Source of the DNA: Sulfurovum sp. UBA12169 | GTDB lineage: Bacteria; Campylobacterota; Campylobacteria; Campylobacterales; Sulfurovaceae | Assembly (NCBI GenBank): GCA_002742845.1 | Contig: DLUH01000001.1 | Coordinates: forward strand, 561,291-625,290 | Length of the DNA: 64,000 bases | Direction: 5' to 3' | In this document: positions 7,682 through 14,833 of the stretch, one piece after another | Layout: each line of letters begins with the position of its first letter | Numbering within the stretch: position 1 is the stretch's first letter | The notes under the pieces: generated by a model | What the model saw: only the letters and a program-made list of their open reading frames with translations | Database searches by the model: none | What the model was told of the DNA's origin: nothing | Made by a program: the position numbers and the translations under genes

Positions 7682-8749
7682 TCAAGAAGGCAATAAAGAG
7701 TGAAATGTCTTTTTGTAAATATTTAAAATTGTATCTAAAAGTGCTGCGATCACGGGACCTATAATGATCCCTACCGGCCCAAAAGATGCGATTCCACCAA
7801 AAATCGATATAAATATAACAAGATCAGGCAATTTTGAATCATTCCCGATGATCCGTGGGCGCAAGAGATTGTCAACCAACCCTACGGCCAACACTCCCCA
7901 TACAATAAGCGCTATTCCCCATCCGGTACTGCCTGTAACTATAAGATAGACTGCCGCCGGCAGCCAAATCAACGATGCGCCCAATCCCGGGATAGCAGCA
8001 AGAAGAAAAACAACACTTCCCCAAAATGCAGACCCTTCGATCCCTGTAACCAAAAATGCCGACCCGACCAATACCCCCTCAATGAACCCTATAATCAATA
8101 TACCTTTCAGGGATGCTCTCGTCACCATCAAGCCGCGGTTCATCACTTCAGTGCGATCCTCTTCGCAAAGAGGCAGTAAAGATGCCAGCGAACGCAGCAT
8201 CTGCTGTCCATGTATCAAAAAATAAAACATTGCATAAAACACAACAAACAGGCTGATAAAAAAGCCGACTGTTCCTTTGGTAGCACTGGACAAACTTGAA
8301 ACAAGCCAGCTTCCTGTTGCACTGATCGCTTCGGAGGCTTTCTTGACCATCGTCTCATTAAACGGTTCAAGCTTCTCTTTCATGGGCAGCCAGTCAGGTA
8401 TTTTTTCACTCAAAGAGAGATTATTGTCGAAGGCTTCTTGTACGATGGGGCGTGCTTTTTTGCTGATTTGTATCGCTTCGCTTGTCACCATGCCTGCAAG
8501 TCCTGCCAGCGGCAAACCGACAGCAAATGCAGATATGATCAGTGTAGCGCCGGCCGCCAGGGCAGCTCTGTTGTTTAGACGGTAAAGGATATGGCGGTAG
8601 AAAGGATAAAGAAGCCCCGCAAATATCGCAGCGAGGACAAGTGCGATCAGAAACTCATGGATCATTCCGATAAAGCCTATCAGCGCCATAAACACTAAAA
8701 GCAGTATAAACCCCTGCTGAAATTTCGCAGCCATCTCTTTTTTCATCAT
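7682..8749 (-). CDS. AI-2E family transporter (PerM/YdiK-type permease)
   Basis: A 355-residue inner-membrane protein with about eight hydrophobic segments and the family's soluble domain after the third (about 80-150). The C-terminal half has the typical small-residue-rich region LAAIPGLGASLIWLPA and the GPVGIIIGPVIAALL end. Members are variously described as autoinducer-2 exporters or Na+/H+ antiporters, so the substrate is not assigned. AGAGGAG precedes the first of two adjacent ATGs. It lies 30 bp downstream of chaB on the same strand, suggesting cotranscription. Confidence 0.85.
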   Translation of the reverse strand: MMKKEMAAKFQQGFILLLVFMALIGFIGMIHEFLIALVLAAIFAGLLYPFYRHILYRLNNRAALAAGATLIISAFAVGLPLAGLAGMVTSEAIQISKKARPIVQEAFDNNLSLSEKIPDWLPMKEKLEPFNETMVKKASEAISATGSWLVSSLSSATKGTVGFFISLFVVFYAMFYFLIHGQQMLRSLASLLPLCEEDRTEVMNRGLMVTRASLKGILIIGFIEGVLVGSAFLVTGIEGSAFWGSVVFLLAAIPGLGASLIWLPAAVYLIVTGSTGWGIALIVWGVLAVGLVDNLLRPRIIGNDSKLPDLVIFISIFGGIASFGPVGIIIGPVIAALLDTILNIYKKTFHSLLPS

Positions 8750-8779
8750 TTATCTCCTCTTGTACACCAGGGGTTGAAT

Positions 8780-9004
8780 CTATTTTTTAACCCACTTGCC
8801 GTCTTTTTTTTCATAACTGTGCTTTACGGCTGCCCAAGCAACCTTATGCGCTGTCTCTTCACGGCTTTCATTCCCGCGTCTCTTTTTGGGATCTGCATAC
8901 TCCTCCCATGCACTGTTAAAAGCTTCTTTGTAGATCTCTTGTGCATGTTTCTGGAGATTCTCTCTTACCGGCGCAGGAAGTTCATCCAATGTATCATAAG
9001 GCAT
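8780..9004 (-). CDS. chaB: ChaB family protein
   Basis: A 74-residue ChaB-fold protein: MPYDTLDELPAPVRENL is the family's N-terminal signature, followed by the A(F/W)NSAWEEY helix and the ETAHKVAWAAVKHSYEK segment. ChaB was first linked to cation transport beside the antiporter ChaA, but its activity is not established. No chaA is seen; the neighbour downstream is an AI-2E type permease, some of which act as Na+/H+ antiporters. AAAGGAG precedes the ATG. Confidence 0.85.
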   Translation of the reverse strand: MPYDTLDELPAPVRENLQKHAQEIYKEAFNSAWEEYADPKKRRGNESREETAHKVAWAAVKHSYEKKDGKWVKK

Positions 9005-9282
9005 CGTTTCTCCTTTTTTTGCCCTACCGTCATGATGGGAACAAAAACAAACGGCTGCATGACAGCACTTTTAGGGAAACTCTTTTTCTCGTTCCCATAA
9101 TTTGGCGAGAAAAAAATTCTGATACTGCATACCCTCTCCTCTTCACTCTTCACCATCGAACTGATTTAATTATATACTATCCCGATATAAAAGTAAATCT
9201 CTGATGTGCATTCTTTTGAGCATACCAAGCATACCACACAAGCAGTACTTTTATAAAAAGCACCCCCCTGCTTAACCCCGCC
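9005..9282. other. Non-coding stretch with one inverted repeat
   Basis: No convincing gene is visible. The only structure is TTTTTCTCG (9083-9091) pairing with CGAGAAAAA (9106-9114) around a 14-nt loop that contains CGTTCCCA, as in the REP-like doublet at 5735-5820. Confidence 0.4.
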
Positions 9283-9561
9283 GTCATGCTGACCTTGATT
9301 TGGCATCTTTTTATTTATGTGGATTCCGGATCAAGTCCGGAATGACGGGGGTTGTCATCCTCGCGAAGGCGGGGATCCATACCGTGTCATCCTTGCGCTT
9401 GAAACAGGGATCCATGAAGTCATGGTTGCATGTGGATTCCTGCTTTCGCAGGAATGACGATGGTTTGTCATCCTCGCGAAGGCGGGGATCCATACCGTGT
9501 CATCCTCAGGCTCGACCTGGGGATCCATACCCGTGTCATCCTTGCGAAGGCGGGGATCCAT
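9283..9561. repeat. Cluster of eight REP-like palindromic units
   Basis: Eight related units of 25-30 bp with ends GTCATnC and GGATCCA occur at 9283-9307, 9320-9346, 9354-9380, 9386-9415, 9433-9458, 9467-9493, 9499-9528 and 9535-9561. The second and fifth are inverted relative to the rest. Each is an imperfect hairpin. The 9354 and 9467 units are identical. Spacers are short (5-17 bp) and not conserved, which excludes CRISPR. Five units carry GGATCC and one more carries GGATC. A degenerate ninth unit is at 55289-55315. Translated reading frames across the block are artefacts of the repeat. Confidence 0.85.
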
Positions 9562-9619
9562 GGCTTATTTCGGCAAAAAGTAAACCTATGACTCGCTTGA
9601 CTCTGATGTGGTGGTTGAT

Positions 9620-9784
9620 ATGCACCCCAAAAAGCAAAAGATTATGGTTGGGTATAAAACCCCTAACGGGGTCGAATGGTATTCGAATAAAGAAGCTTTA
9701 ACCGTGTGGGAAATACTAATCCAAAATGAAACATTGGTCAGGGCTGAATTATGGAAATATCATTGTGAGGATTTGGCGTTTTGA
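9620..9784 (+). CDS. Possible small protein or gene remnant
   Basis: A 54-residue frame beginning MHPKKQKIMVGYKTP and ending EDLAF. It stays open for 11 further codons upstream before a stop. Only a weak GGTGG site precedes the ATG. Composition is protein-like (several Trp/Tyr, EALTVWEIL), but I recognise no family. It sits between the REP cluster and the restriction-modification genes, 104 bp ahead of the methyltransferase and in the same direction. It may be a small accessory gene of that system or a decayed gene end. Confidence 0.35.
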   Translation: MHPKKQKIMVGYKTPNGVEWYSNKEALTVWEILIQNETLVRAELWKYHCEDLAF

Positions 9785-9888
9785 TTAACCATTATACAAA
9801 CAGAGTAATGAATAATTGTCATTTTTCAGCTTAACAAAGATATATAACTGTAAAATATTTAATGATTTTTTAAGAGAGCTGGTATATC

Positions 9889-11808
9889 GTGACATCTTTA
9901 CAAACAAATAGAATTTTGAACACTAACATGTATAGCAAAGTTCAACAAGATGCAAAACCAATTCTAAAATGGGCAGGCGGGAAAACCCAAATGCTTGACG
10001 TTTTACTCCCTAAAATTCCCCAAAAATATAACAAGTATATTGAACCATTTTTTGGTGGCGGTGCTTTTTTTTATGCTGTTAATCCAGATGAAGCAATTAT
10101 TGCTGATTCAAATCCCGAGCTTGTCAATTTATACAGAAGTGTTGCAAACAATCTTGACGAAGTGATTTTTTTTCTTTCTCAACATCATAATGACAAAGAT
10201 TACTTTTATGAAATTCGTTCGTTAGATTGGAACCAGCTTTCAGCACCAGAAGCCGCCGCAAGAACAATTTTTTTAAATAAAACTTGTTTTAATGGTTTGT
10301 ATAGAGTTAATAAAAGCGGGGGTTTCAATGTTCCATTTGGAAATTATAAAAACCCTAAAATTTGCGATATATCTAATTTAACTGCGGCATCGGAACAATT
10401 AAAAAAATCTATAATCGTTGAAGGTGATTATAAAAATGTTTTAAAAGAATATGCTGAACCTGGTGATTTGATTTTTCTTGACCCTCCATATCTTCCTATC
10501 TCAGAATACTCAGATTTTCAACGATACACCAAAGAACAATTTTATGAAGAAGACCATGTAGATTTAGCTCAAGAAGTGAAGCGACTTTCTGATTTAGGTT
10601 GCCATGTTATTTTAACCAATTCAAATCATCCCCTCGTCCATGAATTGTATGACTACTACAACATTGAAGTGTATCAAACCAAGAGATATATCAATAAAGA
10701 CTCTAATAAAAGAACGGGTGAAGATGTTGTCGTTACTGCTCATCCTAAAAAGTTTATAATTGGTTCTGAATGTCCTACACCCATATCTAAACAAGCAGAA
10801 AAATACCCTCCTACAAGATATATGGGCTCAAAATCAAAACTTTTGCCACATATAAAAGAAGTAATATCTCATTTTGATTGCAAAACAGTTCTTGACCTTT
10901 TTTCGGGGTCAGGTGTAGTCGGGTATATGCTCAAAGCAGAAGGAAAAGAAGTTATTAGTAATGATTATATGGCTATGGGAGCTACCTTTACAAAAGCCAT
11001 GATAGAAAACAATAATGTTACTCTTTCAGAAGTGAAGACAAAACAATTATTACTCCCAAATGAACATAATAACTGTTTCGTTCAGAATACTTTTAAAGAT
11101 ATTTATTACAGTGATGCAGATAATCAGCTCATTGATACCATCCGAGCTAATATTAAACTACTAGAAAACCCTTATGAAAAAGCAATTGCTACTTCTGCGC
11201 TCATAAGAGCATGTCTTAAAAAAAGACCAAGAGGAATTTTCACTTATACTGGTGATAGATATGATGATGGAAGGAAAGACCTTTTGCTTTCGTTAGAAGA
11301 ACAATTTTTAAATGCTGTTACAGTAATCAATGATGCAGTTTTTTCTAACAACCAAAATAATAAATCTCGTAGAGGTGATGCTATGGATATCCGAGTCAAA
11401 CCGGATTTGGTTTATATGGACCCTCCTTATTACAGTCCTCATTCTGACAACGAGTATGTTCGCCGATATCATTTTGTTGAAGGGATAGCATGTGATTGGC
11501 AAGGTGTTGAAATGCAGTGGCACACCAAAACTAAAAAATTCAAAAGTTATCCTACTCCTTTTTCATCACGCATTGGTGCTTCTGATGCTTTCGATAAGCT
11601 TTTTAAAAAATTCAAAGATTCAATCATTGTAGTTTCTTACTCTTCTAATTCTTTACCAACATTAGACGAAATGGTATCATTGATGTCAAAATACAAACAG
11701 CATGTCGAAGTTATTTCAATAAACCATAAATATTCATTTGGAAATCAAAGTCACAAAATCAATGACAACAATAATAATGTTCTTGAATATTTGTTCGTGG
11801 GGTTCTAA
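9889..11808 (+). CDS. Two-domain N6-adenine DNA methyltransferase (type IIS system)
   Basis: A 639-residue fusion of two D12-class adenine methyltransferase domains. Domain 1: W28-A-G-G-K, E52-PFFGGGA (AdoMet site) and DPPY at 198. Domain 2: RYMGSKSKL from about 311, DLFSGSG at 336 and DPPYYSP at 511. Fused pairs of this kind (M.FokI is the classic case) modify the two strands of an asymmetric site separately, one domain per strand. It would protect host DNA from the nuclease encoded next. The start is GTG with a distant AAGAGAGC site; an ATG 13 codons later lacks any site. The stop overlaps the nuclease start as TAATG. The gene is AT-rich relative to flanking core genes. Confidence 0.85.
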   Translation: MTSLQTNRILNTNMYSKVQQDAKPILKWAGGKTQMLDVLLPKIPQKYNKYIEPFFGGGAFFYAVNPDEAIIADSNPELVNLYRSVANNLDEVIFFLSQHHNDKDYFYEIRSLDWNQLSAPEAAARTIFLNKTCFNGLYRVNKSGGFNVPFGNYKNPKICDISNLTAASEQLKKSIIVEGDYKNVLKEYAEPGDLIFLDPPYLPISEYSDFQRYTKEQFYEEDHVDLAQEVKRLSDLGCHVILTNSNHPLVHELYDYYNIEVYQTKRYINKDSNKRTGEDVVVTAHPKKFIIGSECPTPISKQAEKYPPTRYMGSKSKLLPHIKEVISHFDCKTVLDLFSGSGVVGYMLKAEGKEVISNDYMAMGATFTKAMIENNNVTLSEVKTKQLLLPNEHNNCFVQNTFKDIYYSDADNQLIDTIRANIKLLENPYEKAIATSALIRACLKKRPRGIFTYTGDRYDDGRKDLLLSLEEQFLNAVTVINDAVFSNNQNNKSRRGDAMDIRVKPDLVYMDPPYYSPHSDNEYVRRYHFVEGIACDWQGVEMQWHTKTKKFKSYPTPFSSRIGASDAFDKLFKKFKDSIIVVSYSSNSLPTLDEMVSLMSKYKQHVEVISINHKYSFGNQSHKINDNNNNVLEYLFVGF

Positions 11809-13541
11809 TGGCGTATAAACCTTGGTATATTGGCAATACTACTGTTCGGAATCCATTTAGATTGAAGCTAGGGCTGGAAGCACTTTATAAATCTTCTTTA
11901 CATGGAAATTTAAGTGGCAGAGAAAATGAACAAGCTTTTGCAGAACTTTTACATGAATCAGAAGTCGTTTCAGTAGCTCGACTAGAAGCAGACTCTGAAA
12001 ATCAGGATGCTTCTGATGTAGGTAGAAAATGGAGAGCCGCACTTTCTCAATTAGGTTTTATAGTCCATGAAAATGCTGCCGAAATAAATGTAAAATTCAA
12101 GCCTTATACAATCACACAAAATGGTAAGAATCTATTAAGTGCAGATAATATTTCCGCTGTCAATGAATGTTTTCTTCGTGCATTATCCGCTTACTATATT
12201 CCCTCTGTTATTGAATCCTATAATTATTATGAAGTTTTCTCTCCTTTACGACATGTATTGAATGTCATGCTTCAACTCAAACATGTGACAGGAAATACGC
12301 ATTTATATCAACGCGAAATAGGCATGTTTGTTCAAACTACAAGCGCTCAAAATGATATTGACGCAATTATTCAAAACATATTGGATTATCGCACCAATCG
12401 AGATGGAGCTATCAATAAAAAAGCATTTGACCGTGAGATGTATCAACGAATGGCTGAACCGACTACGGTAAAAGGTGAAACTCTTAAAGACTATGCTGAT
12501 TCAAATATTCGATACCTCAAAGCAACGGGTCTTTTTCAAAGCAGAGGACGAGGAATTGTAATCATTCCAGAAAAAGAACTTTTAGCCAAACAACTTGTTG
12601 CTGACGATAAAAGACCAAGTTCGGATGAAGATTATTTAATACAACTTTTTAATGGTGCAGAACTACCGTCCGATGATATTCTACATGCTCAAGAACTTTT
12701 AGAAGACCTAAAACAGCAGGTAGAAAACAAGGGATTAACTGTTGATACAACGGCTGTTGATTACTCAAATGTTCAAAGTATCAACTCTCTACGCTACACA
12801 CTGGAACAGCAGTTATTTATGCAGAAGGAAATTGATTATTCACGACAACAAAAAGAACAATGGCAAGATATTATAGCTTATATGGATGCGATTATAAAAC
12901 GCAACAGCAAAACTTTTATTTTGCCATATAGTCAAGAAGAGGGGCAGGTTCCAAAAGAAGAATTCCCAGCTTACTTTGAATGGATTGTATGGCGCTCTTT
13001 TTTAGCAATCAACAGACTCAAAAATCAGCCATACGAAGCTAGAAGTTTTCAACTTGACCAAGATTTTCTTCCAGTAAATACAGCACCAGGAGGAAGAGCA
13101 GATGCTGTATTTGAATTTGATGATTATGTTTTAGTATTAGAAGTTACTCTGACAGAAAATTCCCGACAAGAAGCCGCAGAAGGTGAACCGGTTCGACGCC
13201 ATGTTGCAAAATATCAGATGGAATATTCTTCCTATGGAAAGCCTGCATATGGTCTGTTTCTTGCAAATAAGGTAGATACCAATACCATCGAAACATTTAG
13301 AAATGGATTGTGGTATGCTACTAATGACGAGAAAATGTATCTAAAAATTGTGCCTATGACTCTTGAAGATTACAAAAATATTTTTACTGCATTATTTGAA
13401 AGCGGTCAAATTGACAATATTCACATTAAAAATCTACTTGACTCAGTTCTTTTGGGGAAAGAAAATTATGATGCTCCATGTTGGCGCACTTGTATTACAA
13501 ATGCGACTGCACATTATCTTCAAGGAATTCTCGTCAAATAA
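11808..13541 (+). CDS. AlwI-family type IIS restriction endonuclease
   Basis: A 577-residue protein whose N-terminus (KPWYIGNTTVRNPFR) matches the AlwI family. A PD-(D/E)xK-type core lies near the C-terminus: D432 in GGRADAVFEF and E445-V-T447 in VLVLEVTLTEN, so the usual lysine of E-x-K is replaced by Thr. The family cuts outside asymmetric sites; AlwI itself recognises GGATC, but this enzyme's site cannot be read from sequence. It is translationally coupled to the methyltransferase (TAATG). The 3' end overlaps the convergent integrase remnant by 8 bp. No control-protein gene is evident. Confidence 0.8.
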   Translation: MAYKPWYIGNTTVRNPFRLKLGLEALYKSSLHGNLSGRENEQAFAELLHESEVVSVARLEADSENQDASDVGRKWRAALSQLGFIVHENAAEINVKFKPYTITQNGKNLLSADNISAVNECFLRALSAYYIPSVIESYNYYEVFSPLRHVLNVMLQLKHVTGNTHLYQREIGMFVQTTSAQNDIDAIIQNILDYRTNRDGAINKKAFDREMYQRMAEPTTVKGETLKDYADSNIRYLKATGLFQSRGRGIVIIPEKELLAKQLVADDKRPSSDEDYLIQLFNGAELPSDDILHAQELLEDLKQQVENKGLTVDTTAVDYSNVQSINSLRYTLEQQLFMQKEIDYSRQQKEQWQDIIAYMDAIIKRNSKTFILPYSQEEGQVPKEEFPAYFEWIVWRSFLAINRLKNQPYEARSFQLDQDFLPVNTAPGGRADAVFEFDDYVLVLEVTLTENSRQEAAEGEPVRRHVAKYQMEYSSYGKPAYGLFLANKVDTNTIETFRNGLWYATNDEKMYLKIVPMTLEDYKNIFTALFESGQIDNIHIKNLLDSVLLGKENYDAPCWRTCITNATAHYLQGILVK

Positions 13542-13779
13542 GCCCATAAGGTTTGACAAGTCCCTTTCGTTGTATTTTTTGAACAATTGTATCCACAAAA
13601 CGATTATTTGTGATGAAACCATTGTTCAAGCCCAACAAAATTATATTTCTAAGATTTTGTACTGTTTCGATGTTTTCAGTCTTTAACGAATACTTTAAAA
13701 GCGTTTTTCTGGACAATCTGATTACAAAATAATAGGTTTTATTCCGGAATTCCAGATGCTTGGTATCACAAGAAGGCAT
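13534..13779 (-). pseudogene. Truncated site-specific integrase (N-terminal part)
   Basis: An 81-codon frame with the N-terminal pattern of tyrosine recombinases: H-LEFRNKTYYFVIRLS, then YSLKTENIETVQNLRNIIL, resembling the arm/core-binding start of phage-type integrases. The catalytic domain is absent; the frame ends at the tail of the nuclease gene. No ribosome site precedes the ATG. It lies about 90 bp beyond the 3' end of a tRNA fragment and in the same orientation, the usual tRNA-int layout of integrative elements. The family call rests on short similarity. Confidence 0.5.
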
Positions 13780-13869
13780 GAAAGGAGGTATAACAAAAGT
13801 ATGACAAACTTTATCTTCTGTCTTTTTTGTTGTTTGGAAGTCTCTTAAATAGGGAGTTTGTGCTTTCGA

Positions 13870-13906
13870 TGGTGGCGGGGGGACTCGAACCCTCGACCTC
13901 CGGCTT
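13870..13906 (-). other. tRNA 3'-half fragment, probable integration scar
   Basis: On the minus strand the segment reads as a tRNA from the anticodon loop onward: TTAA, anticodon-stem half GCCGG, variable AGGTC, T arm GAGGG-TTCGAGT-CCCCC (one A-C mismatch), acceptor half CGCCACC and A73. No matching D arm or 5' acceptor strand (GGTGGCG) is found upstream, so it is not a complete tRNA. The loop ending NTT-AA would fit Lys or Asn. Breakage at the anticodon loop is typical of integrase attachment sites. Confidence 0.6.
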
Positions 13907-13980
13907 AAATGGCTGTACTAACTTTACCTCACTCCTAAGCCATGGAACGAAAAAACAGGCTGCCGTACTTGAGTCCGATA

Positions 13981-14154
13981 TCAGTTTTTTGGCTTCTCTT
14001 CCTTGGGAAGGAACTTTCCGCACCCTTTTTGGGGTGTGCCACCGAAACTTTTTACCTCTCTTGCCGTGCCGTTTTTGTAGATCACCGCCCGTTGGCAATT
14101 GGGCGACTCGACACATTTGTCATTATCGCATCCTACATCTTTAGGTACTTTCAT
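13981..14154 (-). CDS. Small Cys-rich protein (57 residues)
   Basis: A short frame with a good ribosome site, AAGGAGAGCAA, directly before ATG. The protein begins MKVPKDVGCDND and has cysteines at 9, 14, 20 and 45 (C-x4-C-x5-C ... C), with CVESPNCQRAV and GTPQKGCGKFLPK segments. It is soluble and basic with no signal peptide, and the Cys spacing suggests a small metal site. It is 112 bp downstream of thiE on the same strand and could be the last gene of the gltBD-accD-thiE run or independent. I do not recognise the family. Confidence 0.6.
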   Translation of the reverse strand: MKVPKDVGCDNDKCVESPNCQRAVIYKNGTAREVKSFGGTPQKGCGKFLPKEEKPKN

Positions 14155-14266
14155 TTGCTCTCCTTTTTGTAGTTATTTTTTCAGAATGCTTTGTTTTGTC
14201 CCCATCAATCACGATAGAAACAAAACTTTTGGCGATTTGGCCGTATAAAATGCGGTTGTCTTCATT

Positions 14267-14833
14267 TCAAGCCAGCCCCGCATAGAGGTCTGATCCTATC
14301 ACCTTATAGACGATCGGCGCTTCAAATGCATCTTCCAGCCTCACCCCGCCGATGATGCCGACGGGATGTTTGGAGTATTTGGCGATCTCAAGCAGCGCCT
14401 CACCGCTTACTTTTGCCTCTTTTTTCGTGCCGGTAGGCCGGTAAGCTCCCAAACCTATGTAGTCAAGATCCAGAGTGTTGGCTTGGAGAATTTCCTCTTT
14501 GTCGTGGGTGGAAAGCCCGAGGATTTTGTTTCCTATCTGCCGGCGTATCTGACTGAGAGCCAGATACAAATCTTCATCATAAAGACGTATATCTTCCTGT
14601 CCCAAATGCAAACCGTCCGCATAGCGTATAAGTTCGATATTATCGTTGATGATCACTATCCCCTGATAGTATTTTCGTATCGTAAAAAGATCTGTTTTTT
14701 TCTCTTCTGCGGAACCTGTTTTGTTGCGGTATTGAAGTATAGGGGCGTTAAAAGACCGGATATGCTGCAGCAGCACAGGCAAAGAAACTCCTTTTGAAAT
14801 GAGTGTTTCTTTATCTACTAAGGCGTATATCAT
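14267..14833 (-). CDS. thiE: Thiamine-phosphate synthase family protein (ThiE/TenI-like)
   Basis: A 188-residue TIM-barrel protein that would join the thiazole and pyrimidine moieties of thiamine. Family landmarks in order are QYRNK near 35, IINDN (usually INDR) near 62, DGLHLGQED, GLSTH, and YIGLGAYRPTGTKK (canonical YIGxGPIFPTxTK). The INDR arginine is Asn here, and the protein is shorter than E. coli ThiE, so a TenI-like role is possible. It overlaps accD by 4 bp (ATGA), showing translational coupling. No other thi gene is nearby. Confidence 0.75.
   Translation of the reverse strand: MIYALVDKETLISKGVSLPVLLQHIRSFNAPILQYRNKTGSAEEKKTDLFTIRKYYQGIVIINDNIELIRYADGLHLGQEDIRLYDEDLYLALSQIRRQIGNKILGLSTHDKEEILQANTLDLDYIGLGAYRPTGTKKEAKVSGEALLEIAKYSKHPVGIIGGVRLEDAFEAPIVYKVIGSDLYAGLA

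Follow-up and report, generated by a model that had tools for sequence, protein, structure and literature searches.

A predicted AlwI-type restriction-modification system inserted beside a pre-existing array of GGATC-rich repeats in Sulfurovum

The closest described relatives of the system considered here are AlwI, EacI, and GmeI, which are Type IIS restriction-modification (R-M) systems with the recognition site GGATC. The methyltransferases of these systems consist of two fused halves that produce N6-methyladenine (m6A) in GGATC and GATCC, and for the halves of M.GmeI there is SMRT evidence of methylation in GGATC and GATCC (PMC3526280; PMC4081073).

Here, we describe a locus of Sulfurovum sp. 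UBA12169 at which a predicted gene pair of comparable architecture lies directly beside an array of REP-like repeats rich in the same pentanucleotide. The locus is part of a 64,000-nt stretch of contig DLUH01000001.1, all of which was analysed and which we call the window. For this locus, we computed the family of the enzymes, the integrity of their motifs, the empty site in a relative, the order in which array and island arrived, and the repeat content of enzyme-free relatives. In the reading that we favour (with a probability of roughly 0.87), a Type IIS R-M system akin to AlwI, EacI, and GmeI was acquired horizontally and came to lie beside an array that already existed, and the GGATC sites of the array stem from the repeat consensus and are unconnected with the enzyme. 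The features are collected in Table 1.

Table 1. Features of the R-M island and the adjoining repeat array (window positions)
Feature	Position	Strand	Basis or remark
Array of eight REP-like units, both orientations	9283..9563		older than island, outside it
Degenerate REP-like unit	about 9283-9310		found by eye
REP-like unit, GGATC in loop and stem, not GGATCC	9317..9349	-	covariance model
REP-like unit, GGATCC	9351..9382	+	covariance model
REP-like unit, GGATCC	9383..9417	+	covariance model
REP-like unit, GGAATCC type, no GGATC	9430..9461	-	covariance model
REP-like unit, GGATCC	9464..9495	+	covariance model
REP-like unit, GGATCC	9496..9530	+	covariance model
REP-like unit, GGATCC	9532..9563	+	covariance model
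Inserted R-M island, 4.37 kb	9602..13967	+	empty site in G034; composition; site count
Fused two-domain adenine methyltransferase, predicted	9889..11808	+	639 aa; PF02086, two motif sets
AlwI-family Type IIS restriction endonuclease, predicted	11808..13541	+	577 aa; PF09491, N.BspD6I match, homologues
81-aa ORF, candidate integrase N-terminus remnant	13534..13779	-	DUF6538 E 0.15, below cut-off
tRNA 3'-end-like fragment	13868..13907	-	84% to tRNA-Met gene G000:C5:721614-721656

The methyltransferase gene (M) and the nuclease gene (R) form a two-gene operon (9889-13541), the stop codon of the former and the start codon of the latter sharing one base (TAATG); an alternative ATG start of M is found at 9928. 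The N-terminal half of M is of the D12/Dam class (PF02086, 272.5 bits), and the second half has LFSGSG and DPPYY motifs of its own. Both halves are complete (FFGGG/DPPYL and LFSGSG/DPPYY at 54, 198, 337, and 511), and a PADLOC match spans the full length of M. R covers the entire RE_AlwI profile (PF09491, profile positions 1-441, 397.8 bits), and its residues D432, E445, E458, and H465, for which N.BspD6I has aligned counterparts, do not vary across seven homologues. Together with the repeats, which were located by a covariance model and by eye, these matches bear out the preliminary description of the locus, in which an AlwI-family nuclease and a two-domain methyltransferase adjoin eight REP-like units. 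Both enzymes are presumed to be active.

Among 78 same-genus genomes, the full M is found in this one only. Elsewhere, pairs homologous over their full length (M 60-65% and R 39-46% identical to those of the window) are plasmid-borne in Geobacillus, Acinetobacter (one of them A. lwoffii), Priestia, and an uncultured bacterium, and a pair from another family of the same order is 61% (M) and 43% (R) identical. The remaining AlwI-family proteins are 22-31% identical to the window R. An A. baumannii plasmid (L016, CP081145.1) carries a homologous M with no intact AlwI nuclease annotated alongside, possibly a methyltransferase that persists after the loss of its nuclease.

The limits of the island are given by a relative, G034, which is the nearest one by the neighbouring AI-2E transporter gene (90% identity). 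In G034, the gene order is conserved and the REP array stands at the same place, and the island is absent: the empty site is clean, with DNA matching window position 13968 onward following directly after the array. Because the array is present there without the R-M genes, it lies outside the island and does not need it, and the clean empty site dates the arrival of the island to a time when the array was already present. In another relative, G060, array and island are both missing at the locus. The extent of 9283-13906 previously given for the island is thus to be replaced by about 9602-13967, the left edge being uncertain by a few bases, and the repeats, previously taken to flank the R-M genes, do adjoin them, on the left side only.

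The island has a GC content of 34.8%, as compared with 40.6% for the remaining window, and contains no GGATC at all. The low GC, the weak integrase remnant, and the tRNA-Met-like 3' fragment near the right end fit a decayed mobile element, although the assignment of the 81-aa ORF to an integrase N-terminus is a possible and weak one; an Rfam search of 8700-14400 returned no match. Elsewhere in the genome, a lone copy of the tRNA-Met 3' end at L072 (G000:C5:761685-761715), ~40 kb from the intact gene (C5:721614-721656 region, L071), resembles the distal attachment site that a different genomic island would have.

Recounting confirmed that six of the eight array units carry GGATC and five carry GGATCC; the covariance model detects seven units, and the eighth, a degenerate one, was recognized by eye. 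The local excess of GGATC is real: the array has 11 occurrences in its 288 bp (both strands) vs 1.47 per kb elsewhere, and the maximum per 300 bp is 4 in the remaining window and 6 in a genome sample of 400 kb (20 stretches, each of 20 kb, analysed in addition to the window; genome size 1.86 Mb). Part of this density looks like duplication, since the array contains two 67-nt segments, spaced 113 apart, that match at 87%. The site itself belongs to the repeat: the hairpin, which folds at -10 to -13 kcal/mol, has a 3' arm that ends in GGAT, and the next base is C.

This genome contains 24 copies, distributed over about 8 places, of the same repeat, an intergenic hairpin with a conserved head and stem; of 61 same-genus genomes, 20 have it. 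A RAYT-type transposase may be responsible for its spread. This genome has one RAYT-like gene, a 177-aa ORF (G000:C1:131350-131538; L127:1261-1794, - strand) with ENHMHLI and YIHQNPVKRGYV motifs and a Y1_Tnp match that, at 20.1 bits, falls short of the 23-bit cut-off; the repeat search of this genome found no repeat beside it. REP-like repeats also stand at the ends of two contigs (G000:C1:25-102 and G000:C2:159-366), where they probably broke the assembly, so that some arrays may have been lost or collapsed in it. In G034, a stretch dense in GGATC (L045:541-825, 10 occurrences) was considered as a second array and rejected, as no repeat match covers it.

As had been guessed before, the enzyme probably shares the AlwI site GGATC: the published fused GGATC/GATCC methyltransferases, the plasmid homologues, and the depletion of this site within the R-M genes all point to this specificity. 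The depletion test was devised after zero GGATC had been noticed in the island and covers eight mutually related systems (window 9889-13541 plus homologues L012-L017 and L178), in the R-M genes of which GGATC was observed 18 times vs 36.6 expected, with 0 of 300 synonymous-codon shuffles as low. Among 512 5-mers, GGATC ranked as the third most depleted in these genes. In neighbouring genes (40 kb), 57 occurrences were observed vs 62.8 expected, and the binomial comparison of R-M with neighbouring genes gave p = 0.013, or 0.038 when the expectation from the window's own genes was left out. As the test is post hoc, the systems are related, and GATC overall is also low in the R-M genes (O/E 0.69), the depletion supports GGATC without proving it. 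Genome-wide avoidance of GGATC was tried as a test of specificity and discarded as uninformative (O/E 0.86 here, 0.82 and 0.80 in two system-free relatives). In-gene depletion, a simple signal that backs a specificity where methylation data are lacking, may be a general guide to the specificity of uncharacterized R-M systems.

Were the pair to read another site, such as GGATG, GAGTC, CCATC, or plain GATC, the GGATC of the repeats would be irrelevant. There are grounds for considering this, given that the AlwI family includes GAGTC enzymes, that R has one of them as its best relative of solved structure (N.BspD6I, E about 1e-24), that GGATG is served by fused methyltransferases of the FokI type, and that the R-M genes are low in GATC generally. 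Yet GGATG, GAGTC, and CCATC occur at expectation in the R-M genes of the eight systems, and the full-length likeness of M and R to the plasmid pairs, in which R clearly exceeds the identity of other AlwI-family proteins, speaks for the AlwI site. Moreover, among solved structures the N half of M is nearest to two GATC enzymes, DpnM first and E. coli Dam second, and all three share an NGLxR...FNVPFG segment, which we take, from EcoDam structures, to contain the GATC-reading residues. We therefore consider a different site improbable.

Still less probable is a functional tie between array and enzyme, whether as a cis substrate that stabilizes the island by being cut whenever methylation lapses or through repeat spread by cuts and repair. 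The preliminary description had suggested such a role for the array as a concentrated substrate, and it is true that the array adjoins the genes, is the densest GGATC stretch in the sampled genome, and exceeds the corresponding G034 array in GGATC (11 vs 3 occurrences). The suggestion fails, however, on the comparisons made here: G034 keeps its array without the enzyme, the repeats with their consensus GGATC are spread in genomes without it, and the GGATC share of repeat copies is not significantly raised at this locus (6/7 model-found copies here, 9/17 elsewhere in this genome, 42/62 in enzyme-free relatives; p = 0.43 and 0.19). No convincing repeat match was found at 36 further loci, almost all of which have AlwI-family or homologous M/R genes (one match was marginal, E 0.06), and with about 0.4% of the estimated 2740 genomic GGATC sites, the array is hardly a special substrate. 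It is likewise very improbable that selection retains or expands REP arrays with GGATC beside GGATC-specific R-M systems, with effects on stability or repeat spread, and the adjacency of array and enzyme is best read as coincidence. More credit, if still short of making it likely, is due to the idea that foreign DNA preferentially inserts at REP arrays, in which case the adjacency would not be due to chance and the specificity of the enzyme would not matter. Indeed, the G034 array is split by another insertion, the gene of a 397-aa AAA_14 ATPase (L141, G034:C7:102000-121999, 11216-12711) that has the first two repeat units copied on either side, and in the window the island joins about 40 bp past the last unit; but these are two events at one locus, the left end of the island lies outside the last unit, and the covariance model finds no repeats at its right end.

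Under the favoured reading of a separate insertion beside an older array, one half of M would modify GGATC and the other GATCC, each by methylation of the adenine, thereby covering both strands, and R would cut just outside unmethylated GGATC, on unmodified incoming DNA. The R-M system would have inserted next to the existing REP-like array, whose GGATC sites, originating from the repeat hairpin consensus, would receive the same methylation as those elsewhere. A repeat array so rich in the probable site of its neighbour is thus explained by a hairpin consensus and a separate insertion, and the tempting association between the two is unsupported.

The repeats resemble REP/BIME repeats, which are likewise short GTC-headed hairpins in intergenic clusters, in both orientations and with many copies in some genomes; mobilization by a RAYT would, in this genome, fall to the one RAYT-like gene. 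With N.BspD6I and BstNBI (GAGTC), the window nuclease shares its family and the alignment of the catalytic residues, but the match reaches only an E of about 1e-24, and GAGTC is undepleted in the eight window-like systems. Acinetobacter plasmid copies have an HTH regulator gene upstream, whereas the window system has none. The likeness to AlwI (which cuts at 4/5), EacI, and GmeI is judged by architecture and plasmid homologues, and it is the closest of these comparisons: a fused two-domain methyltransferase, with a Dam-like N half in the window M, stands beside an AlwI-family nuclease, and the pair has full-length homologues on plasmids, one of them in A. lwoffii.
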